Origin: a virus
Direction: 5' to 3' (one strand)
DNA length: 24,623 bases
IMG/VR virus record: IMGVR_UViG_3300017779_000142
Location: 1 to 24,623 of that record
In this document: piece after piece, positions 2,205 through 22,264 of the stretch
How the letters are laid out: each line of letters starts with the position of its first letter
Position numbering within the stretch: the stretch's first letter is position 1
Position numbers and translations under genes: made by a program
The notes under the pieces: model-generated
What the model was told of the DNA's origin: nothing
Databases searched by the model: none
Seen by the model: only the letters and a program-made list of their open reading frames with translations

Positions 2205-3544
2205 TGGTTAAGAAGCTCTCAGAGACAGAGGCCAAGAAGATATTAGGTGTAGCGGGTGACAACACCTCTAATGGTCAGATACGGGCTGATGAGTTTCTAC
2301 CTGAGTTGCGTGGCAAGAAAGCTATACGCAAGTACCGTGAGATGAGAGATAACGACAGTACTATAGGTGCTGTCATGTATGCTACTGAACAAGTCCTTCG
2401 TGATGTCGATTTAAAGGTGATGCCAGCTAATGATAGTGCAGAAGCTAAGAAAGAAGCTGAGTTCGTTGAGTCTGTACTTGATGATATGGACCATACCCTT
2501 GATGACCATATTGCTGAGTCCTTATCGAATTTGTCGTATGGCTTTGCTTGGTTTGAGGTCATCTATAAAAGACGTAATGGCCCTACTGAAAGAAGTGATA
2601 AGAAGCGTTCTAAGTACTCTGATGGCCGTATGGGTGTACGGAAGATTGCTATTCGTGCGCCTTGGACAATCTCTAGGTTTGATGTAGATCAACAGACTGG
2701 TGATGTCAAAGGTATTTATCAGGATGGGTCGGGCTATAACAACTCTAATTATATACCTACTCGTAAAAGTCTGTACTACCGCACGACAACGATTAATGGT
2801 GACCCTGCTGGCCGCTCTATACTTCGTAACGCTTATACTTCTTATGAATATGTCAATAACCTACAGTCTATTGAGGCTATAGCAGTTGAGAGGGAACTTG
2901 CTGGTATCCCTGTTGCTCGTATTCCTGCTGAGTACTTGTCAGGGGATGCAACAGCCACACAATCTGGATTTGTCAATAACCTGCAATCTATTCTCAGGGA
3001 CGTCAAGTTCAATGAGCAGGGATACATTATTCTGCCTTCCGACACCTATCCCGATAAAGACGGAGCGCCTACCAACCAGAAGCTGGTAGATGTTGAGCTT
3101 ATGTCTTCTAGTGGTAGCCGTAATATTGACATTGACCCTATTGTAAGACGTTACCAGCATGATATTGCTCGTAGTGTTCTTTCTGAGTTTCTTATGCTTG
3201 GTGGTGGTAACACTGGCTCTTACGCCCTCTCCAAGTCTAAGACAGACCTGTTCCTTCGTGCATTAGAGAGTTATATCCAAGCTATTGTTGATGTCCTCAA
3301 TAAACAGCTTGTCGAGCGCCTCTGGGAGTTGAACGGTCTGAACTATGACCTGATGCCGACTATTGTAGCTGGTGATGTAGCTCCACACGACTTACGTGAG
3401 ATTGCAGCATTCCTACGCAACTTGAATGGAGCCGACATTAACGTAAGTGATCATCCAGAAGTTATTCAAGACCTTATGGATATTGCTGAACTGAAGTATG
3501 ACCCAGAGTCAACGCAACAACCAAAAGAACAGGAAACTGAATAA
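2204..3544 (+). CDS. Portal protein (DUF935/Mu gp29-like)
   Basis: The portal is the dodecameric ring at one capsid vertex through which DNA enters and to which the neck attaches. The 446-residue length, the position straight after the terminase and the central segment SIEAIAVERELAGIPVARIP (about residues 224-243) match DUF935-type portals. The earlier stretch MRDNDSTIGAVMYATEQVLR (about 46-65) fits the same family. Residues from about 330 include the SEFLMLGGGNTGSYALSKS segment seen in these portals. It is translationally linked to both neighbours through TAATG junctions. The family assignment is from memory of motifs and could be a sister portal family, but the portal role is secure. Confidence 0.88.
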   Translation: MVKKLSETEAKKILGVAGDNTSNGQIRADEFLPELRGKKAIRKYREMRDNDSTIGAVMYATEQVLRDVDLKVMPANDSAEAKKEAEFVESVLDDMDHTLDDHIAESLSNLSYGFAWFEVIYKRRNGPTERSDKKRSKYSDGRMGVRKIAIRAPWTISRFDVDQQTGDVKGIYQDGSGYNNSNYIPTRKSLYYRTTTINGDPAGRSILRNAYTSYEYVNNLQSIEAIAVERELAGIPVARIPAEYLSGDATATQSGFVNNLQSILRDVKFNEQGYIILPSDTYPDKDGAPTNQKLVDVELMSSSGSRNIDIDPIVRRYQHDIARSVLSEFLMLGGGNTGSYALSKSKTDLFLRALESYIQAIVDVLNKQLVERLWELNGLNYDLMPTIVAGDVAPHDLREIAAFLRNLNGADINVSDHPEVIQDLMDIAELKYDPESTQQPKEQETE

Positions 3545-3915
3545 TGGCAACTTTAAATGATCGAGTCCTTGACTCTGGCTTAAGCGTCCTAGACACGGAA
3601 GCCAATAAGATCGTAGTGACCTCTCAGGAAGCTACAACATTCACCAATGCTAATGCAACATATGCTTTAGGTAACTCAACATCACTTTCTATTGGCGCAC
3701 CTGCTGATCGTTCTGGTGGTGGTCGTGAAGTAACTGTAGCAGCTATCACAGATGGCTCAATTACAGGTACAGGCACAGCAACACATTATGCTATCGTAGA
3801 TACAACAAACTCACGTTTGCTTGCTACTAGCACTCTCAGCGCCTCTCAGTCAGTTACGAGTGGTAACACCTTTACTCTAGCCTCATTTACTATCGGTATC
3901 CCAGATCCTGCATAA
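3544..3915 (+). CDS. Small Thr/Ser/Ala-rich virion-associated protein, function unknown
   Basis: This 123-residue protein is rich in Thr, Ser, Ala and Gly and looks all-beta (short alternating hydrophobic strands, with GSITGTGTATHYAIVD in the centre). It has no signal peptide and no catalytic motif I can see. It overlaps the portal stop by one base (TAATG) and is followed after 10 bases by the first long fibre gene. It therefore belongs to the same transcription unit and opens the fibre cassette. Similar small proteins beginning MATLNDRVLD occur, as I recall, beside fibre genes in marine phage genomes. It may be an adaptor or minor decoration protein; no specific function is claimed. Confidence 0.7.
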   Translation: MATLNDRVLDSGLSVLDTEANKIVVTSQEATTFTNANATYALGNSTSLSIGAPADRSGGGREVTVAAITDGSITGTGTATHYAIVDTTNSRLLATSTLSASQSVTSGNTFTLASFTIGIPDPA

Positions 3916-3925
3916 AGGCTAAACA

Positions 3926-6085
3926 ATGGCTGTTCTCAAAAATAGGGCAAAGATGTCCACCAGTACGACGGGTACTGGAACCATTACGCTTGGCTCTGCT
4001 GAGGATGGCTATCAGAGCTTTGCTGATGCTGGTGTAGCTAATGCAGATGTAGTCCGTTACGTTATTGAGGACGGTAATAACTTTGAGATAGGCACAGGCA
4101 CCTATACAGCTTCTGGCACCACCCTGTCACGCACAGTAAGCGAGAGCAGCAACTCAAACAATGCCATTAACCTTAGCGGTTCAGCTACAGTGTTTATCGG
4201 GGCTACGGCTGAAGATATTCCTGCGCTTTATGCTGATAATGACGTAAGTGCTACTGACCCCACTGCTAGTGGTAATAATTCAGTAGCGATTGGTGATAGT
4301 GCTACAGCCGCAGGTGTAAGATCAACTGCACTCACTTATTCTCATGCAGGTGGAACGGACAGCTTTGCAGCAGGTATTGGTAGCAGTTCAAGTGGCCGTG
4401 GCGCACAGGCTGGACAGGCGGTAGCCATTGGTAACAATGCTTGGGTTAGGGCAACTGAAGCTGTAGGTTTAGGTTACTATGCTCATGTTGGCACAAGTGG
4501 CACAAGGGCTGTTTCTTTGGGTCAGGGTCAGGCAGATGGCGCAAACTCTCTTACTGCCGTTATAAGTACTGAATCTACGTCATATGGCAGTAATGGCTCT
4601 AACAGTATTGCTATGGGGGCTTTAGCTAAAGCTACAAGCACCTACGCAGTAGCAATTGGATATAGTACGCAAAGCACTGGCATAGGTACTGTAGCCATAG
4701 GCGCTCAAAATACAGCATCGGGCCAGTATTCTACAGCCATAGGTAGGAGCAATACTGCGTCAGGAAATTATGCAGCGGTAATTGGTTCAAGAGACAGCAC
4801 TGCAAGTGGCGACAACTCCTTTGTAGCAGGGCAAGGCAACACTGTTTCTCACGCTAACTCAATTGCTTTAGGTACTAGCGTACAGTCTACAGCTACAAAT
4901 CAAATTAACTTAGGTGGTACAGCCGACACAGTACGCATCTCAGAGACTTACACCTTACCTACCTCCGACGGTACTAACGGGCAGGTACTTACCACTGACG
5001 GCTCTGGAGTTGTTACTTTCGCAGATGCTGGTGGTGGCTCACCTGATTTGTTCGCTGAAAGCTACGATGGATCAAGTACAAAGCCATCTGCTAGTGGATC
5101 ACAAAATGCTGTCTCGATTGGGGTAAGCGCAAATGCGAGTGGCCACGACACGATATCTATAGGCGAAAGTTCTTCAGCAGTGTCTAGCAAAGCACTGGCG
5201 CTTGGTTATAGCGCTTACGCTGGTGGAGGTGGGCAAAACACAGCAATTGGCCCAAACAGCTTTACGGGAACCAGTGCATACTCAAGCGCATTCGGCCACA
5301 ATGCCTACAGCATCGGCCAAGATGGTGTTGCAATCGGGCAAGCTAGATCAACCGGCACCGACAGCCTTGCAGCAGCTATAGCAACCAACAGTTCAAGCTA
5401 CGGCGCTGCTGGTGCTAATAGTATTGCGATGGGTCAGAATGCGTATTCTGGAGGTAGTGGTGCGGTCAGCTTGGGTACAAGTTCTTTAGCTAACGGCATT
5501 CAATCACATGCTTTTGGCGGGTCATCGTCGGGAGCTTATTCTCTTGCTTTTGGTGGTACGGCATCAGGAACTGTGGCTGTAAGCCTAAAGGGAGGAACCG
5601 CTTCTGGAGAGCGTTCACTCGCAGTTGGCTTTAGATCATCCGCAACTAAATATGGTCAAAAGGCTTTTGCGAGTGGCCGCTTTGCTGCTGATGGGGATGC
5701 TCAAGGCAGTATTTTTATTCTTCGTGCAGACACCACTGACGCAACCGCAACAGTTCTCACAACTAACAACAGCACCGCATCTACAGATAACCAAATCGTA
5801 GCAGCCAGTGACACTTGCATCATGTTCTCAGGCACACTTGTGGCAATGCAGAATGGCGCACAGGATCAGGGTGGCTGGGAGATTAAAGGCTTACTGAAAA
5901 ATGACGGTGGTACAACTACCTTAGTAAGCAGCAACATACAGACATTTGATGACGGTAATGGCTGGGTAGTAGCCTTAACTGCTGACAACACAAACAACGC
6001 CTTAGCAATTACCTGCACAGGGGAAGCTGCACATAACATTCGTTGGGTTGCTAATATTCAGACCAGTGAGGTGACGTATGCTTAG
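3926..6085 (+). CDS. Tail-fibre/adhesin with YadA-head repeats, 719 aa
   Basis: This is probably a trimeric receptor-binding fibre. Residues 1-about 98 (MAVLKNRAKMSTSTTGTG...) form an N-terminal domain common to phage fibres and likely used for virion attachment. Residues about 112-325 and 385-580 are arrays of YadA-head-type repeats of about 14 residues, with core AVAIG, SIAMG or AVSLG followed by A-x-A-S-G, which build a trimeric left-handed beta-roll in adhesins. A linker (about 325-385) holds NQINLGGTADTVRISETYT and DGSGVVTFADAGGG. Residues about 580-719 form a C-terminal domain (ILRADTTDATATVLTTNNST, ending HNIRWVANIQTSEVTYA) shared with the next gene. There is no signal peptide, as expected for a phage protein rather than a secreted autotransporter. 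Placement between portal and protease is unusual. Confidence 0.85.
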   Translation: MAVLKNRAKMSTSTTGTGTITLGSAEDGYQSFADAGVANADVVRYVIEDGNNFEIGTGTYTASGTTLSRTVSESSNSNNAINLSGSATVFIGATAEDIPALYADNDVSATDPTASGNNSVAIGDSATAAGVRSTALTYSHAGGTDSFAAGIGSSSSGRGAQAGQAVAIGNNAWVRATEAVGLGYYAHVGTSGTRAVSLGQGQADGANSLTAVISTESTSYGSNGSNSIAMGALAKATSTYAVAIGYSTQSTGIGTVAIGAQNTASGQYSTAIGRSNTASGNYAAVIGSRDSTASGDNSFVAGQGNTVSHANSIALGTSVQSTATNQINLGGTADTVRISETYTLPTSDGTNGQVLTTDGSGVVTFADAGGGSPDLFAESYDGSSTKPSASGSQNAVSIGVSANASGHDTISIGESSSAVSSKALALGYSAYAGGGGQNTAIGPNSFTGTSAYSSAFGHNAYSIGQDGVAIGQARSTGTDSLAAAIATNSSSYGAAGANSIAMGQNAYSGGSGAVSLGTSSLANGIQSHAFGGSSSGAYSLAFGGTASGTVAVSLKGGTASGERSLAVGFRSSATKYGQKAFASGRFAADGDAQGSIFILRADTTDATATVLTTNNSTASTDNQIVAASDTCIMFSGTLVAMQNGAQDQGGWEIKGLLKNDGGTTTLVSSNIQTFDDGNGWVVALTADNTNNALAITCTGEAAHNIRWVANIQTSEVTYA
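4262..5660 (+). repeat. YadA-head-type repeat arrays in the 719-aa fibre
   Basis: Degenerate repeats of roughly 42 bases encode the AVAIG/SIAMG-type strand followed by a turn (A-x-A-S-G). The arrays are interrupted at about 4870-5080 by a non-repeat linker. A larger module of about 32 residues (G-x-D-S-[FL]-A-A-x-I...S-S-x-G-A...NSIAMG) recurs three times. Boundaries are approximate because the units are imperfect. Confidence 0.75.
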
Positions 6086-6097
6086 GAGTAATAACTA

Positions 6098-8575
6098 ATG
6101 GGTTCTATTAACTTAGATAACACAGGCTCTGGTGGCGGTATAACCTTAAGCTCTGACGGTACAAGTTTATTACTAGACGGTACAGCCGTAGGTGGCGGTG
6201 GTGCTGATCTTTATGCTGCTAATGAAAGTAGTCCTGCCGCACAACCAAGTGCCACTGGCGCAAATGCGGTGGCGATTGGTGATAGTGCTGTTGCTAGTGA
6301 TGAAGACGCATTTGCTGGGCCTATGTCAAGGGCTTCAGGAACACATTCTGTTGCTTTAGGTGTTGCTAATAATTCAACTACTTATGGTGCAAGCGGTTCA
6401 TACTCTATAAGCATAGGCTATCAATCAAGAGCAAAAGCTGGTCAGTCAGTAGCTTTGGGTTCTACCGCTTACGTCGATAGTGATAGCTTAAGAGCGCTTG
6501 CTTTAGGTGAAAATGCCTATGTCCAGCAGTGTGACTATGGTACGGCTATCGGTGCGGCTTCTAGAGTACATGGTGGAAACAGCGCAACTGAAGCAATAGC
6601 TATTGGAAGTAGTTACGCTTCAGGAACGAGTTCGTTTGCAGCAGCTATTACTAACAACACCTCAACATACGGCGCACAAAGTGCTAATACTATTGCGGTA
6701 GGATATCAAGCTAAGGCTAATGCTTCATACGCAACAAGTATAGGTTATAATAATACTGCATCAGGAATAGGTGCAGCGGTTTTGGGTGCAACGAGTTCAA
6801 CCTCATCTGGCTTTAGAAGTCTTGTTGTCGGTGGTGTAAGCAATACCGCAAGCGGCTCCTATGCTTCAGTTTTAGGTGGTCAGAGCAATACTGCTAGTGA
6901 GGCACATGCTATTGCTATGGGTGATGGCAGCACAGCATCTCATGCAAATTCTGTTAGTATCGGTGACAACGTACAGTCTACAGCCGCAAACCAAATCAAC
7001 TTAGGTGGCACGGCTGACACAGTTCGCATTTCAGAAACTTATACCCTACCAACATCCGACGGAAGTGCCAATCAGGTGCTTACTACAAACGGCTCAGGTG
7101 TAGTTAGCTTCGCAGATGCTGGTGGTGGTGGTGCAGATCTTTATGCTGCTAATGAAAGTAGCCCTACTGCACAGCCTTCAGCTACTGGAACGAATGCTAT
7201 AGCTATTGGGGATAGTGCAACAGCAACTAGCACGTATTCACATTCAATGGGTTATGGAGCAGATGCTACTGGACAATTTGCAACAGCAATTGGATATGAT
7301 GCTCTTGCTTCTGGGAGTAGGTCAGTAGCTATAGGAGATGCTAACTCTGCGGGGCTTGCAAGTTTTGCTGCTGGGATTGCTAATAGATCAACTTCTTACG
7401 GTGCAACTGCTAATAACAGTGTTGCGATGGGTCAGCTTGCAAAAGCTAGTGGAAATGGCAGTGTTGCAATTGGATTTGGAGCAGACGCTAGTAATACGCA
7501 CAATGTAGCTATTGGTTATAATTCAGAAGCAAGCACAGGCACTTATAACTTTGCCTTTGGTTCTGGTGCAACAGCAAATGCATCCTACTATGCTGTAGCG
7601 ATAGGTTCTGATGCTGGCGGTAATGGTTCAACCGCAGGGGGTAATGGTTCGTTTGCTACGTCAGGCGGTGTTACTGCGGGAAATCAGGCACAGGCATTAG
7701 GTAAAGCATACGCATCTGGCTCAAACAGCCTCGCAGCAGCTATAGCTAACAACACCTCAAGCTATGGTGCTAGTGCTACAAATAGCATTGCGATGGGGTA
7801 TCAGGCTAAAGCTTCTGTTCAAGGTGCTGTTGCTATAGGCTATGGAGCATTAGCAGAAAATAATACCCATGCAGTTGCAATCGGTAGATCATACGCAGAT
7901 GGCGCAGACAGTTTTGCGGCGGCTATAGGTAATCCTCATAGTAGTCTAGGTGCTAAAGGCGATCAGTCCGTTGCTATAGGTTATTATGCAACAGCTAGTG
8001 GCGGCAATCACGCACTTGCATTAGGGGGTAATACTGTTGCTTCGGGGAGTTATTCTGCTGCAATCGGTGGTGGTAACACTGGGAACGAAGCAACCCGTCA
8101 TGGTAGTTTTGCTTTTGGTAGGGGCGCAAAGTCAGACATAGTAGGAAAATATGCATTTGCTAATGATAGATTTGCTGCAAATGGAGATGCTCAAGGGGGC
8201 ATGTACATACTTCGTGCAGATACCACTGATGCAACCGCAACAGTATTAACTACAAATAATAGCACAGCGGGTAGTGATGATCAGATCGTAGCTAACTCTG
8301 ACACCTGTATCACCTTTGATGGAACAATCACTGCGATGCAGAACGGCGCACAAGCATATGCCTCATGGCGTATTGAAGGCTTGTTGGTGAATGACGGTGG
8401 TACAACCACACTCGCCAACAGTGCAACTACAGTAATCCAGAACTTATCAAGCTGGGGCATGGCTCTCTCAGCCGATAATACTAACAACGCATTGGCTATC
8501 ACCTGTACTGGTGAAGCGAGCCATAACATTAGATGGGTGGCTAATATTAGAACCACTGAAGTAACATACGCCTAA
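6098..8575 (+). CDS. Second YadA-head repeat fibre, 825 aa
   Basis: This is a paralogue of the preceding fibre with a different N terminus: MGSINLDNTGSGGGITLSSD replaces the attachment domain of the 719-aa protein. After a short Gly-rich lead (GTAVGGGGADLYAANESS, about 29-46) there are two long arrays of YadA-head repeats, about residues 50-295 and 365-685. The linker between them has the same NQINLGGTADTVRISETYT sequence as the first fibre. The C-terminal domain (about 685-825) matches that of the 719-aa protein nearly residue for residue in its core. The region beginning GADLYAANESSP occurs twice, so the gene seems to have grown by internal duplication. It probably assembles with, or as an alternative to, the first fibre. 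Lacking the same attachment domain, it may bind the virion through another cassette protein. Confidence 0.82.
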   Translation: MGSINLDNTGSGGGITLSSDGTSLLLDGTAVGGGGADLYAANESSPAAQPSATGANAVAIGDSAVASDEDAFAGPMSRASGTHSVALGVANNSTTYGASGSYSISIGYQSRAKAGQSVALGSTAYVDSDSLRALALGENAYVQQCDYGTAIGAASRVHGGNSATEAIAIGSSYASGTSSFAAAITNNTSTYGAQSANTIAVGYQAKANASYATSIGYNNTASGIGAAVLGATSSTSSGFRSLVVGGVSNTASGSYASVLGGQSNTASEAHAIAMGDGSTASHANSVSIGDNVQSTAANQINLGGTADTVRISETYTLPTSDGSANQVLTTNGSGVVSFADAGGGGADLYAANESSPTAQPSATGTNAIAIGDSATATSTYSHSMGYGADATGQFATAIGYDALASGSRSVAIGDANSAGLASFAAGIANRSTSYGATANNSVAMGQLAKASGNGSVAIGFGADASNTHNVAIGYNSEASTGTYNFAFGSGATANASYYAVAIGSDAGGNGSTAGGNGSFATSGGVTAGNQAQALGKAYASGSNSLAAAIANNTSSYGASATNSIAMGYQAKASVQGAVAIGYGALAENNTHAVAIGRSYADGADSFAAAIGNPHSSLGAKGDQSVAIGYYATASGGNHALALGGNTVASGSYSAAIGGGNTGNEATRHGSFAFGRGAKSDIVGKYAFANDRFAANGDAQGGMYILRADTTDATATVLTTNNSTAGSDDQIVANSDTCITFDGTITAMQNGAQAYASWRIEGLLVNDGGTTTLANSATTVIQNLSSWGMALSADNTNNALAITCTGEASHNIRWVANIRTTEVTYA
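6206..6231 (+). repeat. 26-bp exact direct repeat, copy 1
   Basis: The 26 bases encoding the DLYAANESS segment recur exactly at 7136-7161, an offset of 930 bases (310 codons, in frame). Similarity continues at protein level through QPSATG to the next AIAIGDSA unit. Together with the shared array architecture this marks an internal duplication of about half the gene. Confidence 0.8.
6260..8155 (+). repeat. YadA-head-type repeat arrays in the 825-aa fibre
   Basis: Imperfect repeats of about 42 bases encode AVAIG, SVALG or SIAMG cores with A-x-A-S-G turns. A linker at about 6985-7190 separates two arrays. The 32-residue SFAAAI..N.TSSYGA...NSIAMGYQAKA module recurs about four or five times, more often than in the neighbouring fibre. 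Unit edges are approximate. Confidence 0.75.
7136..7161 (+). repeat. 26-bp exact direct repeat, copy 2
   Basis: This is the second copy of the repeat at 6206-6231, at the start of the second YadA-head array of the 825-aa fibre. Exact identity over 26 bases contrasts with the heavy third-position divergence between the two fibre genes. The internal duplication is therefore probably younger than the gene duplication, or was refreshed by recombination. Confidence 0.8.
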
Positions 8576-9120: not shown

Positions 9121-10257
9121 ATGTCAGTAACCATCAATCACCAGACTAATTCTGTAGAGCCAAGCAGTGGTGACCTGTCGATTGGTGGTAGCGGTAATGT
9201 TGGGATTGGTGACACTGCCGATAGTAACAGTAAACTTCACGTTTTCGATAGTACAGCATCAGTAGATGATTACACTATTCACATTGAGTCATATACCCCT
9301 GCGTTAATTTTCGAAGATATTTCTGGCGGCCCTGCCATAGACTTTGGTATTCAAGTTGACGACTCAGCAATGATGTTTCGATATGGAGATGCATCTTCTG
9401 GATCACAATTAGCGTCAGAAGCCATGCGCATCGACGGCAGCGGTAACTTGCTGGTGGGAACTACTACGCAACAACCTGCATCAACCTCTGGTGTAGAAGG
9501 GTTTAGCGTTTATGCCGGTGGTCAAGTACAGGCATCTAAAAGCGGTTCAACAGTGGCTAGGTTCAACCGCAATTCGTCAGACGGCGACATTGTGCAGTTC
9601 CGCAAAGACGGCACCACTGTGGGGAGTATTGGTGTTGACTTCGGTGACAGGATATACATCGGCACAGGCGACGTTGCTTTATTCTTTAATAACGCAAGTG
9701 ACGCTATACAGCCTTTTAATACTAGCGGTGCGTTGCGTGATAATGCTATAGATTTAGGTTCTTCTAGCTATCGCTTTGATGACATCTACGCTACCAATGG
9801 TACAATCCAAACATCTGACCGCAACGAAAAGCAAGACATCCGTGACTTGACTGAAGCAGAGCAACGTGTCGCTGTAGCCTGCAAAGGCTTGCTTAAAGCA
9901 TGGCGCTGGAAGTCTGCCGTTGAGGAAAAGGGTGACGATGCCCGTATTCACTGCGGTATCATTGCGCAAGATTTACAAGCAGCATTTGCCGCAGAAGGCT
10001 TGGATGCGGGACGTTATGCGATGTTTATGTCAAACACTTGGTGGGAGCATGACGTTGAGGTGCCAGCGGTAGAAGCTGTGGCAGAGGTGCTTGACGAAGA
10101 CGGTAACGTAGTCACTGAGGCTGTAGAAGCCGTTGATGCCTACACCCGCACAGACACGTATGACACACAAGAAGAAGCGCCAGAGGGCTCTACAGAGCGC
10201 ACGAGGCTTGGTGTTCGATACAGCGAGCTACTGGCGTTTATAATAGCTGCTATTTAA
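9121..10257 (+). CDS. Tail fibre with C-terminal S74 self-cleaving chaperone domain
   Basis: This 378-residue protein combines a fibre portion (about 1-230, with NVGIGDTADSNSKLHV and GNLLVGTTTQQPAS typical of beta-helical fibre repeats) with a peptidase S74 / intramolecular chaperone domain (about 230-378). The domain begins TSDRNEKQDIRDL and contains KAWRWKSAVEEK, IHCGIIAQDLQAAF and the terminal RLGVRYSELLAFIIAAI. In this family the chaperone trimerises the fibre and cuts itself off using a Ser-Lys dyad five residues apart. Here S232 and K237 have that spacing, so release just before S232 is expected. An acidic insert rich in VEAVAEV/EAVEAVDA lies near 316-345. The ATG at 9121 follows the previous stop by three bases. 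Confidence 0.88.
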   Translation: MSVTINHQTNSVEPSSGDLSIGGSGNVGIGDTADSNSKLHVFDSTASVDDYTIHIESYTPALIFEDISGGPAIDFGIQVDDSAMMFRYGDASSGSQLASEAMRIDGSGNLLVGTTTQQPASTSGVEGFSVYAGGQVQASKSGSTVARFNRNSSDGDIVQFRKDGTTVGSIGVDFGDRIYIGTGDVALFFNNASDAIQPFNTSGALRDNAIDLGSSSYRFDDIYATNGTIQTSDRNEKQDIRDLTEAEQRVAVACKGLLKAWRWKSAVEEKGDDARIHCGIIAQDLQAAFAAEGLDAGRYAMFMSNTWWEHDVEVPAVEAVAEVLDEDGNVVTEAVEAVDAYTRTDTYDTQEEAPEGSTERTRLGVRYSELLAFIIAAI

Positions 10258-10267
10258 GGATAAATAA

Positions 10268-11704
10268 GTGTTAGGATTTAGCCCATTAGCTTCTGCACCA
10301 CTAGCGGATAGTGGGATAGTATCTGAAGAATATGCTTTAACTGCTAACTCAATTTCCACTGGTGCGCCAGTAGTAAACTCCCCAGCACTTACTGAGAATA
10401 ACGATCTAACAGCTACAGCAATAGCTACAGGAAACCCTGTAGTAAACTCTCCTAGCTTTACTCAAGAACACTCTCTAACAGCTACAGCAATAGCTACAGG
10501 AAACCCTGTAGTAAATGCCTGTAACATGGCTGAAAGAGAAACCTTTACTACAGCAGACTTAGATGCTGGTGAACCTCAACTTGGAACCCCTGTAGTAAGT
10601 CAAGAGCATAGCTTATCTGCAAGCTCTATAGTAACTAGCTCTCCTGTAGTAAGTCCTGCACCTATTACAGAGAACAACGATTTAAGTTGCTCTTCTATTT
10701 CCACTGGTAACCCTGTATTAGGTTCTCCAGTATTTAACATAGCTGTCATTTTAAATGCTAACAGTATTGTTACAAGTAATCCAATTGTTTCCTCTGCGAC
10801 TATGGCAGAAGATGAGACATTCTTAGCGGATAGTATTTCTACTGGGGCACCTGTTGTAAGCCCTGCCACATTTGACCAAGAACATATTCTAACAGCCACA
10901 CCTATTGTTACAGGTAACCCTGTAGTCTCCTCTACTACAATGGCTGAAGATGAGACATTTGCAGCAGACAGTATAGTTACAGGTACACCTACTGTTGGTT
11001 CTCCTGACATTGATCAGGGTCATGTACTACAAGCTCAGAGTATAGCTACAGAGTCCCCTAATCTTGGTTCACCTGAGATAGATCAAGAGCATCAGCTATC
11101 AGCTTCTAACATTGTTACAGGCAATCCGATTGTCAACCAGTGTAACATGGCTGAACGTGAGACATTCACTACAGCAGATCTTGTAGCTGGTGAGCCACAG
11201 TTAGGTCATCCAGAGATAGACCAAGGGCATGCTCTACTGCCTAGCAGTATTTCTACTGAGGCCCCTGTAGTAAACAGTGTAGCCTTTACTCAAGGTCATA
11301 ATCTAAACGCATCTAGTATTGTTACAGGTCTACCTGTTGTAGGTGCAGCAGCAATAAGCCAAGACCATGTTATAGTTGCTAATGACATAGTTACAGGTAA
11401 CCCAGTGGTTTCTTCTGTAGCAATGGCAGAAGATGAAACCTTTGTAGCAGACAGTATTTCTACTGGTAGCCCTGTCTTAGGTAACCCTGCTGTTACTCAA
11501 GAGCATGCTATACAGCCTGACAGTATTACGACAGGCGCACCTATAGTCCCCTCTCTATTTCTTAACCCCTCTGTAAGAAGAGTTGTTTCCATAACCTCTA
11601 ATTCAGACAACACTGTTACGCTGGCGTATAACTATAACATAGCAACTATAGACAGCTTTTGTAACATAGCAACTGTATCAAACAACAAAAACAAGGCAGC
11701 TTAA
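10268..11704 (+). CDS. Protein of eighteen 23-residue tandem repeats
   Basis: After a 23-residue lead (MLGFSPLASAPLADSG...), residues 24-437 are exactly eighteen consecutive 23-residue units without a gap. The consensus is about LxAxSIxTGxPVVxSPxxxx followed by QEH, AEDET or ENND. A non-repeat tail of 41 residues follows (438-478, with NTVTLAYNYNIATID). The strict period, the invariant Gly-x-Pro turn and alternating hydrophobics suggest a regular fibrous or solenoid shaft, perhaps a spacer or virion surface rod. There is no membrane segment or enzyme motif. The start is GTG at 10268, with AAGGA seven bases upstream at the end of the S74 fibre gene. Similar proteins starting MLGFxPLAS occur, as I recall, in marine phages without known function. 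Confidence 0.75.
   Translation: MLGFSPLASAPLADSGIVSEEYALTANSISTGAPVVNSPALTENNDLTATAIATGNPVVNSPSFTQEHSLTATAIATGNPVVNACNMAERETFTTADLDAGEPQLGTPVVSQEHSLSASSIVTSSPVVSPAPITENNDLSCSSISTGNPVLGSPVFNIAVILNANSIVTSNPIVSSATMAEDETFLADSISTGAPVVSPATFDQEHILTATPIVTGNPVVSSTTMAEDETFAADSIVTGTPTVGSPDIDQGHVLQAQSIATESPNLGSPEIDQEHQLSASNIVTGNPIVNQCNMAERETFTTADLVAGEPQLGHPEIDQGHALLPSSISTEAPVVNSVAFTQGHNLNASSIVTGLPVVGAAAISQDHVIVANDIVTGNPVVSSVAMAEDETFVADSISTGSPVLGNPAVTQEHAIQPDSITTGAPIVPSLFLNPSVRRVVSITSNSDNTVTLAYNYNIATIDSFCNIATVSNNKNKAA
10337..11578 (+). repeat. 69-bp tandem repeat array (18 units, coding)
   Basis: Eighteen in-frame units of exactly 69 bases encode the 23-residue repeats. Most units differ at many bases. 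The 42 bases at 10405-10446 recur exactly at 10474-10515, one unit later, pointing to a recent unit duplication or gene conversion there. Unit ends fall into classes (QEH/QGH, MAEDET/MAERET, TENND) that recur irregularly. Confidence 0.9.
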
Positions 11705-11706
11705 GA

Positions 11707-12027
11707 ATGGCATTTAACATCAAGCAAAATGATACATCTCCTTCTTTGCAAGCTACTCTTAAGGATGCTTCTGGTACGGTTATTATCTTAACGGGAGCTA
11801 GTGTTAGGTTTCATATGAAAGCCCTTGATGGTACAGTTAAGGTAGATGCTGCTATGACTATTACAAGTACATCTGGTGGTGTAGTTCAGTATGATTGGCA
11901 GACTGGAGATACCGATACTGTAGGGTCTTACTCAGTAGAGTTTGAGGTTACCTATTCAGATAGTACTATTGAGACATTCCCCAATAATCAAAACTTGACA
12001 ATCTCTGTCGTTAGAGAACTTAGTTAA
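11707..12027 (+). CDS. Stand-alone BppU N-terminal-like Ig-fold protein
   Basis: This 106-residue protein closely follows the pattern of the BppU N-terminal domain (baseplate upper protein of lactococcal phages). It starts FNIKQNDTSPSLQATLKD, continues LTGASVRFHMKALDGTVKVD, and ends QYDWQTGDTDTVGSYSVEFE, then TFPN. That domain is a small beta sandwich anchoring receptor-binding proteins to the virion. Here it makes up the whole protein, with no fibre fused behind it. It may be a separate adaptor holding one of the neighbouring fibres, or a surface decoration. It follows the 23-residue repeat gene after two bases and is the last gene before head morphogenesis. The domain call is good; the role is inference. 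Confidence 0.72.
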   Translation: MAFNIKQNDTSPSLQATLKDASGTVIILTGASVRFHMKALDGTVKVDAAMTITSTSGGVVQYDWQTGDTDTVGSYSVEFEVTYSDSTIETFPNNQNLTISVVRELS

Positions 12028-12044
12028 TAAGGATCATGTGACCA

Positions 12045-13106
12045 ATGCCTAAAGGACTAGCTGAAAAAGTAAAAACACACAATGCTAAATCTAAGCATAA
12101 AGTTACAACAGGTATGTTGCAGACAGTTTATAACAGGGGTGTAGGCGCTTATAGAACTAATCCCTCTTCTGTTAGACCTAACGTAACTGGCCCAGAGCAA
12201 TGGGCAATGGCTAGGGTAAACAGCTACCTTAAGATTGTAGCAGGTTCTAAGTCACCTAAGCACGACAAAGACTTGTTGCCTTCTAGCCACCCATCTAGCA
12301 CCAAGAAGATGGACGATGGTTACTATGTAGATAAAGCTGACAAACCCCTTAACAAGCCCTTTAGACTTCCCTCTGGTTCAAGTAAGAAGTTTGGTGTGTA
12401 CGTTAAAGACGGTGACAAGACTAAGAAAGTTACCTTCGGAGACCCTAACATGGAGATCCGTCGAGATGACCCAAAGGCAAGGGCTAATTTCCGTTCTAGG
12501 CACTCTTGCGATACAGCTACAGATAAGACCTCTGCTAGATACTGGTCCTGTCGTATGTGGAGTGGGGCAACGGTGGGTAGTATGACCAAAGCAGAAGAAG
12601 ATTTTAAACCTCATCAAATGTATGATCCTAAGACAGGCGATGCTCTTATGGCAGCTACTTACGAACAACATCTTGATTTGAAGGAAAGAGGCTACACTCA
12701 CAATAAGCCCCTTACAAAAAGTATTGAAGGTCAAATCCTAAAGGCTGACGAAGAACAACGTCTAGTCTATGGGTGGGCCTCAGTCGTTACTGAGAAGGGT
12801 GAGCCAGTGGTTGACCGTCAAGGTGACGTAATAGAACCTGAGACACTTGTTAAGGCTGTCAACAGCTTTATGGAACATATTCGTGTCGGTAAGCAAATGC
12901 ATACAGGGGAGCAGATTGGGTCAGTTATCCATTCTATGCCTATCACTAAAGAGATTGGTGACTCCCTTGGCATACAGAGTGACCGTGAGGGCTGGATTGT
13001 AGCTTTCAAAGTCCACGACGATAATGTCTGGGCAAAGGTCAAGTCTGGTGAACTTGCGGCCTTCTCTATTGGGGGTCGTGCAATCAAGGAGGACTATAGT
13101 GCCTAA
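12045..13106 (+). CDS. XkdF-like prohead maturation protease with two extra N-terminal domains
   Basis: The C-terminal third (about 235-353: RLVYGWASVV, DRQGDVIEPETL, MHTGEQIGSV, GWIVAFKVHDDNVW, AFSIGGRAIKEDY) fits the S78_2/XkdF phage serine protease family, which processes scaffold and capsid in the prohead. H286 (MHTGE) and S341 (AFSIGG) are the likely catalytic pair. Residues about 1-85 resemble DUF5824 (VTTGMLQTVYNRGVGAYRTN ... WAMARVNSYL ... DLLPSSHP). Residues about 115-178 form a second phage domain (KKFGVYVKDG, VTFGDPNMEIRRDDPKARAN, FRSRHSC, YWSCRMW), with His and Cys residues that could bind metal. The open frame ends unusually early, right after GRAIKEDYSA. The segment that normally follows appears at the start of the next gene. 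Confidence 0.85.
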   Translation: MPKGLAEKVKTHNAKSKHKVTTGMLQTVYNRGVGAYRTNPSSVRPNVTGPEQWAMARVNSYLKIVAGSKSPKHDKDLLPSSHPSSTKKMDDGYYVDKADKPLNKPFRLPSGSSKKFGVYVKDGDKTKKVTFGDPNMEIRRDDPKARANFRSRHSCDTATDKTSARYWSCRMWSGATVGSMTKAEEDFKPHQMYDPKTGDALMAATYEQHLDLKERGYTHNKPLTKSIEGQILKADEEQRLVYGWASVVTEKGEPVVDRQGDVIEPETLVKAVNSFMEHIRVGKQMHTGEQIGSVIHSMPITKEIGDSLGIQSDREGWIVAFKVHDDNVWAKVKSGELAAFSIGGRAIKEDYSA

Positions 13107-13902
13107 CCTTTTAAAACAGCTTGAGTTGGAGGAATTGTCTTTGGTGGATCGTCCAGCAAACGCACAGGCAACAGTCTCCTTGTACAAGCGTGATAATTCC
13201 AGTGGAGAACCTATGGAACATGAAGTAGAAAAAATGTCTGATGATCTTAAAGCTAAACTGAAGCCATACATGGATAAAGGTATGTCTGAAGAAGAGGCCA
13301 TGAAGATGTATAATATGGACATGAAGAAAGCTGATGAAGCAACTGCTGAAGAGCTAGAGATCGAAACCCTTAAAGCCGTTGAAGCCTCTTTGAAAGAAGA
13401 GAACGAACGTCTTCGTAAATCACTTATCGACAATGGATATGTCATTAAAGCTGACATCATCGAAAAGAAAGTCGAGCCTGAGTATGTAGAGTATGAAGGT
13501 GAGCAAATCAACAAAGCTGACATCCCTGCGCCTATCCTTAAGGCTTTGGAAGCAGCAGAAGTTGCTAAGGCAGATGCTGAACTGACTAAACGTGCAGAAG
13601 AAGCTCTACCTAATTTCAACATCGACGTAGCTAAATCACTTATTGCTAAGTTTGATGAAGATGAAAGTGTCATGGAAGCCTTGAAGGGTGCAGATGCAGT
13701 CTTTGCGGAATCTATGGAAGAATTTGGTAAGTCCGATGCAGATGGTAACTTTGCTACCGCACAAGACAAGCTAGATGCCCTCGTTAAGTCTTATATGGAC
13801 GAAAACAAAATCAAGAAGAGCCAATATGCTGTAGCTTATGCTGCAGTTGCTAAGACCGATGAAGGTAAAGCTCTTATCAACAAATCCTATAAAGGAGAAT
13901 AA
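13099..13902 (+). CDS. Scaffold-like capsid assembly protein carrying a protease-type N-terminal segment
   Basis: Start chosen at GTG 13099, which has an excellent AAGGAGGA (13086-13093) six bases upstream and overlaps the protease stop; this gives 267 residues. The first 30 residues (LKQLELEELSLVDRPANAQA) look like the end of XkdF-type protease domains (usual pattern E-x-S-L-V-D-x-P-A-N). The rest is acidic, Lys/Glu-rich and helical, with a likely coiled coil around 90-120 (IETLKAVEASLKEENERLRKSL), as in scaffolds that are later digested. Position between protease and decoration/capsid genes supports this. An ATG at 13024 in the same frame would give a longer product, but its added residues overlap the protease and have no such ribosome site. 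A +1 frameshift fusion with the protease is a less likely alternative. Confidence 0.75.
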   Translation: MPNLLKQLELEELSLVDRPANAQATVSLYKRDNSSGEPMEHEVEKMSDDLKAKLKPYMDKGMSEEEAMKMYNMDMKKADEATAEELEIETLKAVEASLKEENERLRKSLIDNGYVIKADIIEKKVEPEYVEYEGEQINKADIPAPILKALEAAEVAKADAELTKRAEEALPNFNIDVAKSLIAKFDEDESVMEALKGADAVFAESMEEFGKSDADGNFATAQDKLDALVKSYMDENKIKKSQYAVAYAAVAKTDEGKALINKSYKGE

Positions 13903-17445: not shown

Positions 17446-18354
17446 ATGGCCTTCGCACAAGGTTCTCGTTCCAGTCTATCGTTCATTGTGGAAAGCACAT
17501 TTGGTACGACTCCCGCTGGTAACTTTACAAACTTACCCTTCAGCACACACTCTTTAAACTTAAGCAAAGATCGTGTAGCTGGTACTGACATCCAAGCTGA
17601 CCGTATGCCTCGGGTTGACCGTCATGGTAACCGTCAAGCTGCTGGTGATATTGTAGCTGACTTACGTGATGCTGACTACGATGCATTCCTAGAATCAGCT
17701 ATGTTGTCCACTTGGTCAAATAACGTCCTTAAGGTTGGTACAGCACCTAAGTTCTTCTCTATCGAAGATTATGCTGCTGACATCGACCAAGCTCGTTTGT
17801 TTACAGGTATGACAGTTTCTACTATGGGTATCTCTCTAGCCCCTAATCAGATGGTAACAGCTACCTACGGTATGGTTGGTAAAGACATGACCATGAGTGC
17901 TACTGAGAAGACACAGAATGCTGCATCAGGTGCTGCTCCATTTGATGCTTACTCAGGTACATTAGCTATTGGTAACGTCAATGGTACACCCTCTACATCA
18001 GCTATCGTAACTGGTATGGACTTTACCCTGACTAACTCTTTCGCACCTACCTTTGTAATTGGCAGTGATAGTGCGCCACAATTAGAAGTTGGTCGTGCAG
18101 AAATAGAAGGTACTCTTTCAGCTTACTTTGAGGATGCGTCACTAATCAACCGCTTCTTAAATGAAACAGAAACTGAGCTTGAGGTAACTGTGGGCGATGG
18201 TAGCAATACCCTTAAATTCGCATTCCCACGGGCTAAGATTAACAGTGCAGACGTAGGTGTAGATGGCCCAACTAGCCGTGTCATCTCTATGTCATTCGTA
18301 GCACTCTACAACACGACAGACGCAAGTAACTTAGTTATTACTCGCTCTGCATAA
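17446..18354 (+). CDS. Major tail tube protein (Phage_tube-like)
   Basis: This 302-residue protein forms the stacked rings of the tail. The start (GSRSSLSFIVESTFGTTPAG), the central DRHGNRQAAGDIVADLRDAD and VSTMGISLAPNQMVTATYGM, and the C-terminal SRVISMSFVALYNTTD are typical of the long tube-protein family (Phage_tube_2). It is beta-rich throughout with Ser/Thr-rich loops, e.g. GTPSTSAIVTGMDFTLTNSF. TTAGGAGAA before the ATG is a strong ribosome binding site, matching a high-copy virion protein. A GC-rich hairpin follows at 18371-18404, before the tail chaperone genes. No collar or Ig-like C-terminal extension is evident. Confidence 0.88.
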   Translation: MAFAQGSRSSLSFIVESTFGTTPAGNFTNLPFSTHSLNLSKDRVAGTDIQADRMPRVDRHGNRQAAGDIVADLRDADYDAFLESAMLSTWSNNVLKVGTAPKFFSIEDYAADIDQARLFTGMTVSTMGISLAPNQMVTATYGMVGKDMTMSATEKTQNAASGAAPFDAYSGTLAIGNVNGTPSTSAIVTGMDFTLTNSFAPTFVIGSDSAPQLEVGRAEIEGTLSAYFEDASLINRFLNETETELEVTVGDGSNTLKFAFPRAKINSADVGVDGPTSRVISMSFVALYNTTDASNLVITRSA

Positions 18355-18849: not shown

Positions 18850-19193
18850 TTAGGGATCTTGTTGAGTATGCAGAACATGAGTTCTCTGTCAGTAAGCCCG
18901 ACAAGTCAGGCACATCAGAACGTGAACATTTAGAGCAAGTAGAGAGGCAGACTGGACACAGACCAAAAGCATTAGATGGCCCCGACTTCCCATTGCTTAT
19001 GTCTCATGTTTGGTCTGCCTTTATTGCATTAAGTAATGGCAGAAGTATGGGCTTCTCTGGCCCCAACCCGCTAAGTTATCAAGAAATTAAAACATGGAAG
19101 GAGCTTACTGAAACACCTTTATCTGCTTGGGAAGTAGAAGCTGTTAAATGTGTAGATGTAGTCTTTATGGGTATGGCAAATGGCACAAGCTGA
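18798..19193 (+). CDS. Tail assembly chaperone -1 frame extension (T-like)
   Basis: This frame is open from 18798 and encodes DLVEYAEHEFSVSKPDKSGT ... LMSHVWSAFIALSNGRSMGF ... WKELTETPLSAWEVEAVKCV ... up to TGA at 19191-19193. It lies in the -1 frame relative to the preceding gene, whose stop is at 18847-18849. A ribosome slipping back at T-TTT (18834-18837) would give a fusion of about 247 residues continuing ...YLSFYEGLIRDLVEY. Independent start at TTG 18846 is possible but has GAAGG only one base away. By analogy with lambda gpGT the fusion would recruit tail tube subunits to the tape measure. No perfect X-XXY-YYZ heptamer is visible. Confidence 0.6.
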   Translation, partial: RPNRRRSCKLLKFYEGLIRDLVEYAEHEFSVSKPDKSGTSEREHLEQVERQTGHRPKALDGPDFPLLMSHVWSAFIALSNGRSMGFSGPNPLSYQEIKTWKELTETPLSAWEVEAVKCVDVVFMGMANGTS

Positions 19194-21090
19194 TGTAACT
19201 GTTGGGGTAGATATTTCCCAGTTAGTAAAAGCAACAAACGAGACTAAGAAGTTTGCCAGAGAGAGTAAGGCTTCGTTTGATGTGGTAAATTCCCGAATGA
19301 AAGTGTTTGGGGAAACTTCCAATGTCGCTTTTAACAAGTTTGGTCAGGGTGCTTTACTTGCTCAAAAGAGATCTAGTAACATGGGCGTTGCAACTCAACA
19401 GCTAGGTTATCAAGTAAGTGACTTCATAGTACAAATACAATCTGGAACAAACGGTTTTGTAGCCTTTGGTCAACAGGCTTCTCAGCTTGTAGGTGTTCTA
19501 CCCCTTGTAGCTACCCAGCTTGGCATAACGGCTCGTGCTGCTATTGCTTTATCTGCTAGTCTCGGTATTATTATTCCTCTAGTAACAGCCTTTGGTGCTT
19601 ACTGGTTGAGAAGCAATGAGGCTTTAGATAAGACAGCAAAGTCAGCTAATGCAGCTAAAAGTACGATAGAAAGCCTAGACAAAGCTCTTGAGAAGTTTGT
19701 CCTTACTCAAAGAGCAGCAGCAGCAGGTATGACTGTTGAGGAACTCTTATCTTCTGAGTCTCTTGAGAAAGCAAAAAAGGATTTAACAACAGCTAGAAAA
19801 GAATTAGACAGGGTTAAAAAGGCTTTAGAAGAGACTAATAAAGCCCCAAGGCTACTCAAGTCAACTATTTTTACTGATATATTTGGGATAGAAACTTTAG
19901 AATCGCAGTTGAAAAAAGCTGAATCTGATGTAAAAGAATCTACTAAAAGAGTGAGACTATTACGACAAAAAGCAGCTACTGAATCTGCTGAAGCAAGTAA
20001 TAAGGCTGTTAATGCGGCTAACCAAGCGGCTGCTCAAAAGCGATTTGATGAAGTGTCTCAGATGGAAGAGAGAATTAAAGCTCTCAAAATAAAGAAGGCA
20101 CAAGAGGTTATTGCTGAAGAAAAGAAGACTCAAGATGCTTACGACACAAGGTTTCAAACTTTACAAGAAGAAATAGATTTATTAACAGTTAAGAACAATT
20201 TCCACCAAGATGAGCAGTCTTTAGCGAGAGGCATGAATCAACTTGAGCTAATGAAGTTAGAAGAGTACATAGCTCAGAACAATATTAATGTAGAAAACGC
20301 TGCTATATTAAGAGAGCAATTAACTACTAGCCAACAACTAAGAGAAGAGGCTGACAATATTGCAACTGCAAAAGCTAATGAATTAAGTTTCATGCGAGCT
20401 ATGCAAGCCTCTATGAACCAACTTGGTCAAGGTCAAACTGAGAGAGATAGGATAGCTGCCGCCGCCGCAAGGAAAGCTGAAGCTGCCGCTAGACAGGCTG
20501 AGAGACAACGAGAGCTAGAACAAAGAGAGAAGTTAAGGGTAGCTATTCAGAAGCAAAACGAAGAAACTGAAAAGCTAAAGAGTACTGCTGACCAATTAGC
20601 TGCACCCTTCGATGACTTCTTTATGTCTGTAGTGGATGGTACTACTTCAGTAACAGATTCCTTCAAAGCTATGGCTAGGGATATTATCAAAGAGCTTTAC
20701 AGAATATTTGTAGTAGAGCAAATGGTTCAATCTATTAAAGGCGGTATAATGGGTGCCTTAGCTGGGCCAGTACAAGGGCCAAACTTACCTTCAGGTGGTT
20801 TTGACGGTGGTGGATACACAGGCTCAGGCCCAAGATCAGGTGGCTTAGACGGTAAGGGTGGCTTTATGGCTATGCTACACCCTAGAGAGACTATCGTAGA
20901 TCACACTAAAGGTCAGGGTGTAGGTGGTGAAGTTATTAACGTAACTCAAAATATTAATGTCTCCACAGGCGTACAACAGACTGTACGTGCTGAGATTAAA
21001 CAGCTTATGCCTCAGATAGCTGACAGTGCTAAGGCTGCTGTAGTAGATGCTAAGAGGCGTGGTGGATCATATGGAAGGGCATTCTCGTAA
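19180..21090 (+). CDS. Tape measure protein
   Basis: This is the 636-residue ruler that fixes tail length and is ejected with the DNA. The N-terminal part contains QQLGYQVSDFIVQIQSGTNG (about 73-92) and a hydrophobic stretch (about 92-142), typical of tape measures. Residues about 150-480 are Lys/Glu/Ala-rich coiled coil. The C-terminal DFFMSVVDGTTSVTDSFKAM, GGGYTGSGPRSGGLDGKGGF and AMLHPRETIVDHTKG (about 480-590) match the lambda H-type end. It overlaps the chaperone frame by 14 bases. Using about 1.5 angstrom per residue, the expected tail length is near 95 nm (an inference). No lytic or peptidase domain is visible in it. Confidence 0.92.
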   Translation: MAQADVTVGVDISQLVKATNETKKFARESKASFDVVNSRMKVFGETSNVAFNKFGQGALLAQKRSSNMGVATQQLGYQVSDFIVQIQSGTNGFVAFGQQASQLVGVLPLVATQLGITARAAIALSASLGIIIPLVTAFGAYWLRSNEALDKTAKSANAAKSTIESLDKALEKFVLTQRAAAAGMTVEELLSSESLEKAKKDLTTARKELDRVKKALEETNKAPRLLKSTIFTDIFGIETLESQLKKAESDVKESTKRVRLLRQKAATESAEASNKAVNAANQAAAQKRFDEVSQMEERIKALKIKKAQEVIAEEKKTQDAYDTRFQTLQEEIDLLTVKNNFHQDEQSLARGMNQLELMKLEEYIAQNNINVENAAILREQLTTSQQLREEADNIATAKANELSFMRAMQASMNQLGQGQTERDRIAAAAARKAEAAARQAERQRELEQREKLRVAIQKQNEETEKLKSTADQLAAPFDDFFMSVVDGTTSVTDSFKAMARDIIKELYRIFVVEQMVQSIKGGIMGALAGPVQGPNLPSGGFDGGGYTGSGPRSGGLDGKGGFMAMLHPRETIVDHTKGQGVGGEVINVTQNINVSTGVQQTVRAEIKQLMPQIADSAKAAVVDAKRRGGSYGRAFS

Positions 21091-21716
21091 TGGCTATTAG
21101 TTACCCTTTAAGTTTACCTACAAGTATTGGTATAGCTCAGATAGAATTTAGGGCAACCAATGCTGTAGCTGTATCAAGGTCACCCTTTACTTACTCAACT
21201 CAAGTTCATGCTTACTCTGGTCAGTCTTGGCAAGCTGATGTTACTCTACCCAGTATTCGTAGGGACTTAGCTGAAGAGTGGGTAGCTTGGCTTATTTCCC
21301 TTAAGGGGCAACTAGGGACTTTCTACTTAGGTGATCCTAATGCTGTAACACCCAGAGGTTCAGCTAGAGACACAGATACAATACTAGTAAATGGGGCTAC
21401 ATCATCAGGAAACACACTTGCTATTGATAGTGCCCCTGCAAGTCAGACAGGATACCTTAAAGCTGGTGACTACATGCAAGTAGGTACTGGAACAAGTAGA
21501 CAACTGTTTAAAGTCCTAGCAGATGTAGATACCAATAGCTCTGGTCAAGCTACAGTTGACATATGGCCCGATGTTAGAACCACTATAGCTAACGACGCTG
21601 CTGTTACTGTAGAGAATACTAAAGGCATTTTTAGGTTATCCTCTAACGAACAAGGCTTCAGTATAAATGAAGCTAGTTTCTATGGGATCTCATTCGGAGC
21701 AGTGGAGGCACTATGA
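21090..21716 (+). CDS. Distal tail protein (Dit-like family)
   Basis: This 208-residue protein resembles a common phage family whose signature is visible here: an early IEFRATNAVAVSRSPFTYST, then GQSWQADVTLPSIRRDLAEE, LKGQLGTFYLGDPNAVTPRG, GYLKAGDYMQVGTGTSRQLF and ATVDIWPDVRTTI. It is beta-rich and probably forms the hub at the end of the tail tube to which tip proteins attach. It starts on the tape measure stop (TAATG) and overlaps the next gene by four bases (ATGA). I do not recall a definite Pfam name; the distal tail role is inferred from position directly after the tape measure. Confidence 0.72.
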   Translation: MAISYPLSLPTSIGIAQIEFRATNAVAVSRSPFTYSTQVHAYSGQSWQADVTLPSIRRDLAEEWVAWLISLKGQLGTFYLGDPNAVTPRGSARDTDTILVNGATSSGNTLAIDSAPASQTGYLKAGDYMQVGTGTSRQLFKVLADVDTNSSGQATVDIWPDVRTTIANDAAVTVENTKGIFRLSSNEQGFSINEASFYGISFGAVEAL

Positions 21717-22264
21717 GCCGTACAATACCATCAGCTTTACTTACATCTCTTGGTCAACCAGAAGTACACCCTTATTATGCTGTCGAGCTTGATTTTGATA
21801 GCACACCTATCAGGCTATGGACTGGCTACGGTGAAAGAACGATATTTAGTAATACTTATACTGGCGGGGGTAGTCTTTTAACTGTCAGTGGACTTGAAGA
21901 AGCTAGTGATCTTTCCGCTAAAGGTATAACTTTATCTCTATCTGGTGTGCCATCTACACTTGTAACTCTAGCTCTTAGTGAGCCTTATCAAAGAAGAGAG
22001 TGTAAGGTCTACTTTGGTACAACAGATACACCTATCCCGATAGAAGTCTTTAGTGGTCTTATGAACACAATGACTATTGAGGACAGTGGAGAGACAAGTG
22101 TTATCTCAATAGCTGTTGAGAGTAAACTTATTAGATTAGAGAAAGCCAGCAATAGAAGGTACACAGAAGAGAACCACTTATCTCGACATACTGGTGATAC
22201 CTTCTTTAGTTATGTTACAGATTTACAAGACAAGGATGTAGTATGGGGCAGAGAGAGAGCTTAA
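21713..22264 (+). CDS. Tail tip protein, DUF2163-like
   Basis: This 183-residue protein contains HPYYAVELDFDSTPIRLWTG, GGSLLTVSGLEEASDLSAKG, ITLSLSGVPSTLVTLAL and a closing FFSYVTDLQDKDVVWGR. The pattern resembles the N-terminal part of DUF2163-type tail proteins found between tape measure and tip genes in phages and gene transfer agents. It lacks the C-terminal region seen in the longer members. It is probably a baseplate or hub component linking the distal tail protein to the J-like tip. Its start overlaps the previous gene as ATGA, and its last 22 bases overlap the next gene. The family call is tentative; tail tip location is well supported by context. Confidence 0.68.
   Translation: MSRTIPSALLTSLGQPEVHPYYAVELDFDSTPIRLWTGYGERTIFSNTYTGGGSLLTVSGLEEASDLSAKGITLSLSGVPSTLVTLALSEPYQRRECKVYFGTTDTPIPIEVFSGLMNTMTIEDSGETSVISIAVESKLIRLEKASNRRYTEENHLSRHTGDTFFSYVTDLQDKDVVWGRERA

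Follow-up and report, generated by a model that had tools for sequence, protein, structure and literature searches.

A tailed-phage protein of gapless 23-residue repeats, a candidate length-variable fibre shaft

In triple beta-spiral fibres the shaft is built of repeats of about 15 residues and differs in length between types by the number of these repeats. The phage protein described here also varies in repeat number between relatives (5 to 36 detected units in 123 complete family proteins, median 16), but its repeat comprises 23 residues in two putative half-units (2042 of 2174 steps) instead of about 15, and no sequence relation between the two was found. Triple beta-spiral shafts are present in the adenovirus fibre and in reovirus sigma1, and our protein is similar to them in having a short-repeat array in which putative strand pairs would be joined by a Pro/Gly turn and, as in the adenovirus fibre, a short N-terminal peptide that could act as an anchor (PMC7565637, PMC3386624). 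Each triple beta-spiral repeat contains two antiparallel strands with a Pro/Gly turn (PMC7565637), to which a TGxP motif and alternating conserved and variable positions would correspond here, as judged from sequence only.

Other described systems share parts of this pattern. The beta-bracelet of the Orsay virus delta protein is also a thin fibre shaft, made up of short exact repeats in which aliphatic residues stand at intervals; however, it is pentameric and follows the consensus (L/V)x2Vx4V (PMC7565637), whereas large hydrophobic residues are spaced 5, 7, 5 and 6 in our units. The BACON arrays of crAssphage are likewise tandem-unit phage proteins encoded beside tail genes, grown by duplication and known mostly from metagenomic contigs, but their units are Ig-like domains, unlike the 23-residue repeats here (PMC6949934), and Pfam scans gave no BACON match in our units. 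In Enterococcus phage EfV12-phi1, an in-frame tandem duplication in a putative fibre gene alters its length, although this concerns one 1.8-kb segment in laboratory evolution and not a protein of short units (PMC6365445). YadA-head beta-roll fibres are short-repeat fibres too, and one of them is encoded in the same cassette as the repeat protein; Pfam YadA_head matches this neighbour and not the repeat protein itself. Viral fibres that are built of repeats and vary in length are already known, and it is the 23-residue unit that finds no place, by sequence, in the libraries checked.

Fibres of adjustable length would let a phage follow changes in the cell surface by simple means, and in a rod whose units are all equal such adjustment would be visible in the sequence itself. 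Family members are widespread among contigs of marine phages, and one comes from a cultured phage, Roseobacter phage CRP-6; the family found no match in Pfam or the PDB. It is also a compact model for repeat folds on which single-chain prediction fails, and it offers a directly testable pairing of a putative shaft with a small BppU_N-like protein. We consider it probable, with moderate confidence, that the protein is a beta-rich, oligomeric shaft within an adhesion appendage of the virion (a side fibre on the tail or the head), and that shaft length is set by the number of units.

The repeat gene and its surroundings

The window, by which we mean the whole stretch of DNA analysed, is a virus record of 24,623 bases with tailed-phage gene order: terminase, portal, a fibre-like cassette, an S78-type protease, capsid protein E, tail genes, tape measure and a J-like tail tip. 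The capsid proteins of the window and of CRP-6 share 76.8% identity, and the phage group of CRP-6 has been reported as ubiquitous in the ocean (PMC6918029). The repeat gene is the final large gene in the fibre cassette (Table 1). With its GTG start and an AAGGA sequence 7 nt 5' of it, this ORF is genuine; an antisense ORF at 10600-11010 was dismissed as a by-product of the 69-bp period. The protease ORF (12045-13106) and the ORF following it (13024-13902) overlap by 83 bases in different frames. CRP-6 (L057) and the window (19180-24623) both carry tape-measure and J-like genes, which are usual in long-tailed phages, despite the description of CRP-6 as a podovirus by microscopy (PMC6918029).

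Table 1. Positions of the repeat protein, its parts and the neighbouring genes in the window
Feature	Position	Strand	Basis or remarks
Small protein heading the putative appendage cassette	3544..3915	+	PHROG 240, 5.1e-6
YadA-head-repeat fibre-like protein, same cassette	3926..6085	+	Pfam YadA_head match
Second large fibre-like protein; C-terminal region common with 3926-6085	6098..8575	+	
Tail-fibre protein with S74 chaperone domain, immediately 5' of the repeat gene	9121..10257	+	
Repeat (putative shaft) protein	10268..11704	+	478 aa, GTG start, Shine-Dalgarno-like AAGGA at 10256-10260
N-terminal peptide, residues 1-23, MLGFSPLASAPLADSG...	10268..10336	+	Short motif common to many relatives; other short leaders replace it elsewhere
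18 gapless 23-residue units, residues 24-437	10337..11578	+	Sequence division, unit profile
42-bp exact direct repeat, copy 1 (end of unit 1 and unit 2)	10405..10446	+	Exact match
42-bp exact direct repeat, copy 2 (end of unit 2 and unit 3)	10474..10515	+	Exact match
Units 11-18, block with order kept in close relatives of other unit number	11027..11578	+	Relative comparison
41-residue C-terminal tail; second short repeat of ~9 residues, N-x-A type	11579..11701	+	
106-aa BppU_N-like protein, near-constant next gene, proposed shaft partner	11707..12027	+	Pfam BppU_N 6.1e-6

The original prediction divided residues 24-437 into 18 units of 23 residues without insertion or deletion, and this division is confirmed. 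Identity at a lag of 23 residues is 0.335 in the window protein, compared to 0.155 for the highest value at any lag in 5000 shuffles. A family unit profile, built partly from the window's own units and used with no register imposed, found 18 of 18 units at exact 23-residue steps with scores of 24.8-49.3. The exact 42-base duplication claimed for adjacent units is present, its copies lying 69 bp apart. Calling the G-x-P turn fixed was a slight overstatement, as P11 occurs in all 18 units but G9 in only 14. The three proposed classes of unit ending (QEH, AEDET and ENND types) are real and are seen in nine units (H-type, Q-x-H), five units (E-type, AE[DR]ET) and two units, respectively, but units 6 and 18 fit none of them. 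Tandem Repeats Finder did not report the array, because DNA identity between the window units is mostly 35-77%.

The earlier remark that no structure has been described for this repeat holds in our searches, since neither a Pfam match above cut-off nor a match in PDB sequence searches was obtained for the window protein. Its single weak match in PHROGs, to PHROG 5070 (unknown function; E 6.5e-4, with no stretch passing alone), was dropped because the same profile matched 6 of 14 control genomes. Using four different family members as queries, only CRP-6 was matched in the isolate phage collection, where the family member gp57 (QBQ72781.1) is annotated as 'hypothetical protein'. The repeat protein is not mentioned in the CRP-6 passages of PMC6918029 and PMC8528129, and searches of the PMC open-access literature returned no description of such a repeat or fibre in phages. 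A first scan of genome contigs, as distinct from viral contigs, gave no relative; the lone locus from a second scan of this kind (L103) was rejected as MutS-like by eye, with only the string MAEDETF in common.

Register, unit anatomy and fold

Five IMG/VR viral-contig scans, together with the window and CRP-6, gave 153 distinct family proteins, of which 148 non-redundant proteins were retained after removal of contained fragments. The profile was scored at every position of these 148 proteins with no period imposed, and successive units were exactly 23 residues apart in 2042 of 2174 cases, a count that could be slightly favoured by the initial building of the profile from majority-phase units. 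Among the remaining distances there are 14 of 18 and 14 of 5 residues, which sum to 23 and look like secondary matches within one unit; the others are mainly 21, 22, 24, 45 and 47. Residue-shuffled control proteins gave 53 matches in total and none of their 11 spacings was 23.

In 1797 distinct units, large hydrophobic residues are concentrated at four positions, namely 1 (97%), 6 (98%), 13 (95%) and 18 (93%), and reach at most 41% at every other position. Their spacing can be read as dividing each unit into two half-units of about 12 and about 11 residues. A TGxP turn is located at positions 8-11, and the most frequent residues include T8 (64%), G9 (76%), P11 (84%), Q20 (51%) and H22 (47%). 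Conserved positions alternate with variable ones along 18-20-22-1-3 and, G9 aside, along 6-8-11-13, a pattern that would fit strands with one buried face. The classes of unit are coupled internally and to the following unit: M18 occurs with E22 in 301 of 350 units and I18 with H22 in 457 of 634, while position 1 of the next unit is F after E22 (356/449) and L after H22 (794/1083). Mean-field covariation on 1636 three-unit windows gave no decisive contact map; the one strong signal is within the unit, between 18 and 22 and also between 18 and 23, and signals between units are weak, restricted to same positions and could be produced by shared ancestry alone. In four long proteins (L083, L084, L091 and L095; 902-989 aa) a non-repeat domain of ~200-300 residues is located between units and the repeat resumes afterwards.

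An AlphaFold2 monomer model of the full protein, obtained with 28 natural sequences, has a mean pLDDT of 38.3 and a pTM of 0.25. The second model covers the C-terminal 225 residues (units 11-18 and the tail) and has a mean pLDDT of 48.3 and a pTM of 0.16; its alignment of 141 rows contains 140 added rows, many of which are 8-unit natural stretches shifted by whole units. Two outcomes had been named in advance as speaking against the original prediction, a predicted disordered chain with no repeating contacts and a lack of variation in unit number among relatives; as far as monomers go, these low-confidence models agree with the first of the two.

The solenoid named in the original prediction, a single chain with one 23-residue coil per unit, finds no support in these two very low-confidence models and seems to us quite improbable. 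Several short strands in 23 residues would be in keeping with such a coil, and the full-protein model does contain short strands in unit register (residues 23-305, pLDDT about 40; none beyond). However, a solenoid is absent from the models of both alignments and the second is almost free of secondary structure; the low confidence still leaves some room for it. Single-chain solenoids are usually predicted well.

The two models are compatible with an oligomeric fibre or with a flexible chain. The latter would be a periodic tether, disordered or with local order only, serving as a flexible linker or as an array of binding sites, for example for the BppU_N-like protein. In its favour, AlphaFold2 reached no confident fold although 141 rows of repeat units were supplied, and the window array has abundant T, S, A, P and G, hardly any large aromatics (no W or Y) and no lysine. 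Disordered linkers usually tolerate insertions and deletions, whereas the 23-residue register is kept almost throughout this family and the four hydrophobic positions are 93-98% conserved. We regard such a tether as unlikely, though less so than the solenoid; the strict register and the four fixed hydrophobic positions are what tip the balance to a fibre, and the 'fibrous rod' part of the earlier reading is thus favoured by these sequence constraints. If the rise of known fibres applied, with 17 residues (beta-spiral) or 31 residues (triple beta-helix) per 15 A (PMC7565637), the 18 units would come to a length of very roughly 20-37 nm.

Unit number among relatives

Close relatives of the window protein contain 24 (L002), 18 (L001), 13 (L004), 10 (L007, L008, L009 and L005, the last counted from a contig that begins inside the leader) and 8 units (L017 and L018). 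This bears out the claim that length changes by gain and loss of units, near relatives having 8, 10, 13, 18 and 24 of them. The DNA flanking the repeat gene in these relatives is roughly 88-98% identical to the window in most long blocks. Units 11-18 match one to one in L002, L004, L005 and L007-L009 and only partly in L017 and L018. Comparison of the end units in 76 complete proteins with one unbroken chain gave 66 pairs, non-independent of each other, with unequal unit numbers but three or more end units in common at 60% identity or above; the matched runs average 6.1 units from the C-terminus and 1.4 from the N-terminus, and the C-terminal run is the longer in 57 of the 66. Among near relatives of this phage, whole units are gained and lost mainly toward the N-terminal side, and the C-terminal units and their order are kept in most.

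In only 19 of the 66 pairs is the difference in total protein length a multiple of 23, as the leader and the C-terminal tail are variable as well. Tail lengths in relatives cluster near 23, 32, 41 and 59 residues, which is consistent with a nine-residue N-x-A repeat. One relative (L022, 9102-9824) has a C-terminal tail with an internal duplication in which EIGDNNYAEYNREYN is present twice; the short tail repeat expands too. Collapse during assembly was considered as a source of the differences in unit number and judged unlikely, because the longest exact repeat is 42 bp, the sequences of the lost units are different, and both the 10-unit and the 8-unit form were seen repeatedly in contigs of several metagenomes.

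Exact repeated units in variable number also bring to mind a molecular ruler, in which unit number would fix the length of the tail or another fixed dimension, and such a role had been suggested earlier. This is disfavoured, since 8-24 units are found among phages whose capsid proteins are 99% identical (where comparable) and whose tail protein is 94-98% identical to the window protein at 17446-18354, and since the window has a separate tape-measure gene (19180-21090); we hold a ruler to be extremely improbable.

Units 11-18 change rapidly: against seven relatives their dN is 0.042-0.086 and their dN/dS about 0.37-0.93, whereas the capsid protein, comparable in five relatives, has a dN of 0.004-0.005. 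Recombination may inflate such figures. For the adjacent BppU-like gene, with the same reservation, dN is 0.050-0.063 in L002, L004, L005 and L009, 0.004 in L006 and 0.091 in L017, and dN/dS is about 0.12-0.29. Rapid replacement under some constraint would suit a surface part such as the proposed shaft.

The adjacent BppU_N-like gene and the proposed appendage

BppU, from the lactococcal baseplate, is the protein holding the receptor-binding trimers (PMC3893620). A BppU_N-like gene is present directly 3' of the repeat gene in 115 of 132 evaluable loci, this base being 152 distinct non-window proteins minus 16 cut at the 3' end and 4 with <400 nt downstream. A separate count of the next ORF by blastp found a BppU-like protein in 110 of 131, with a length of 106-109 aa in 108 of the 110; several of the misses are wrong picks of the ORF start at loci that are positive in the first count. 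The 17 loci without the partner comprise nine in which the repeat protein carries an extra C-terminal domain of 274-303 residues and eight without such a domain (five of them near-identical). None of the nine domain-bearing proteins has a BppU-like gene; they belong to one lineage (eight of the nine were aligned together with one truncated member), so that the exclusion may reflect a single event. In one relative this domain matches PHROG 8198, also of unknown function. The PDB sequence search with the BppU-like protein gave one, non-significant match. In other phages, the BppU-type gene comes after a laminin-G protein (HRTV-25) or lies between terminase and portal (HGTV-1).

The cassette follows the portal gene in CRP-6-like phages, and this location between portal and capsid genes in the window, along with the filing of PHROG 240 (the first cassette gene) under head proteins, would suit a virion protein outside the adhesion appendages, for example an internal or capsid-decorating one. 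However, the cassette follows the J tail-tip gene in other phages such as L010, L012, L068 and L076, and the flanking genes encode fibres, which leaves this alternative with little probability. In Octadecabacter DB virus 2, a tailspike is preceded by a homologue of the gene that opens the cassette.

In the adhesion shaft that we favour, the short leader and the C-terminal tail would be the joining ends, and the rod between them would consist of equal 23-residue units, each of two beta-prone half-units with positions 1, 6, 13 and 18 buried and TGxP at 8-11 as the turn within the unit. The chains would associate, most likely as trimers, with hydrophobic residues packed between chains, which would explain the failure of single-chain prediction. 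Recombination between units would add or remove whole steps, leaving the register intact because all units are equal in length, and the phage would thereby change the reach of its appendage. The joint would be maintained by the C-terminal units together with the product of the neighbouring gene, the BppU_N-like partner, presumably by physical contact. The leader end is usually read as the one at the virion. Here the more conserved end is C-terminal, beside the partner gene, and the leaders are exchanged (MLGFSPLA-, GLFDSQ- and MTKNAFLG- types), which makes attachment via the C-terminal end possible.

More tentatively, and here we would lean against it, the family could represent a new fold: an obligate homo-oligomeric beta shaft with a 12+11 pseudo-repeat in two flavours (M18/E22->F1 and I18/H22->L1), one end tuned in length by gain and loss of units and the other plugged by a detachable BppU_N-like protein, replaced in one lineage by a covalent C-terminal domain.

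Elsewhere in the neighbourhood, alignment suggests a single or fused copy of the two large fibre-like genes of the cassette (3926-6085 and 6098-8575) in L001 (1-803) and L007 (4495-5975), as if recombination between their shared C-terminal regions deletes a gene. In L002, L004 and L009 the protease match begins ~1.4-1.6 kb past the repeat gene instead of 0.34 kb, and therefore extra or replaced sequence is present 5' of the protease core, between it and the BppU-like gene (window 12028-12710).
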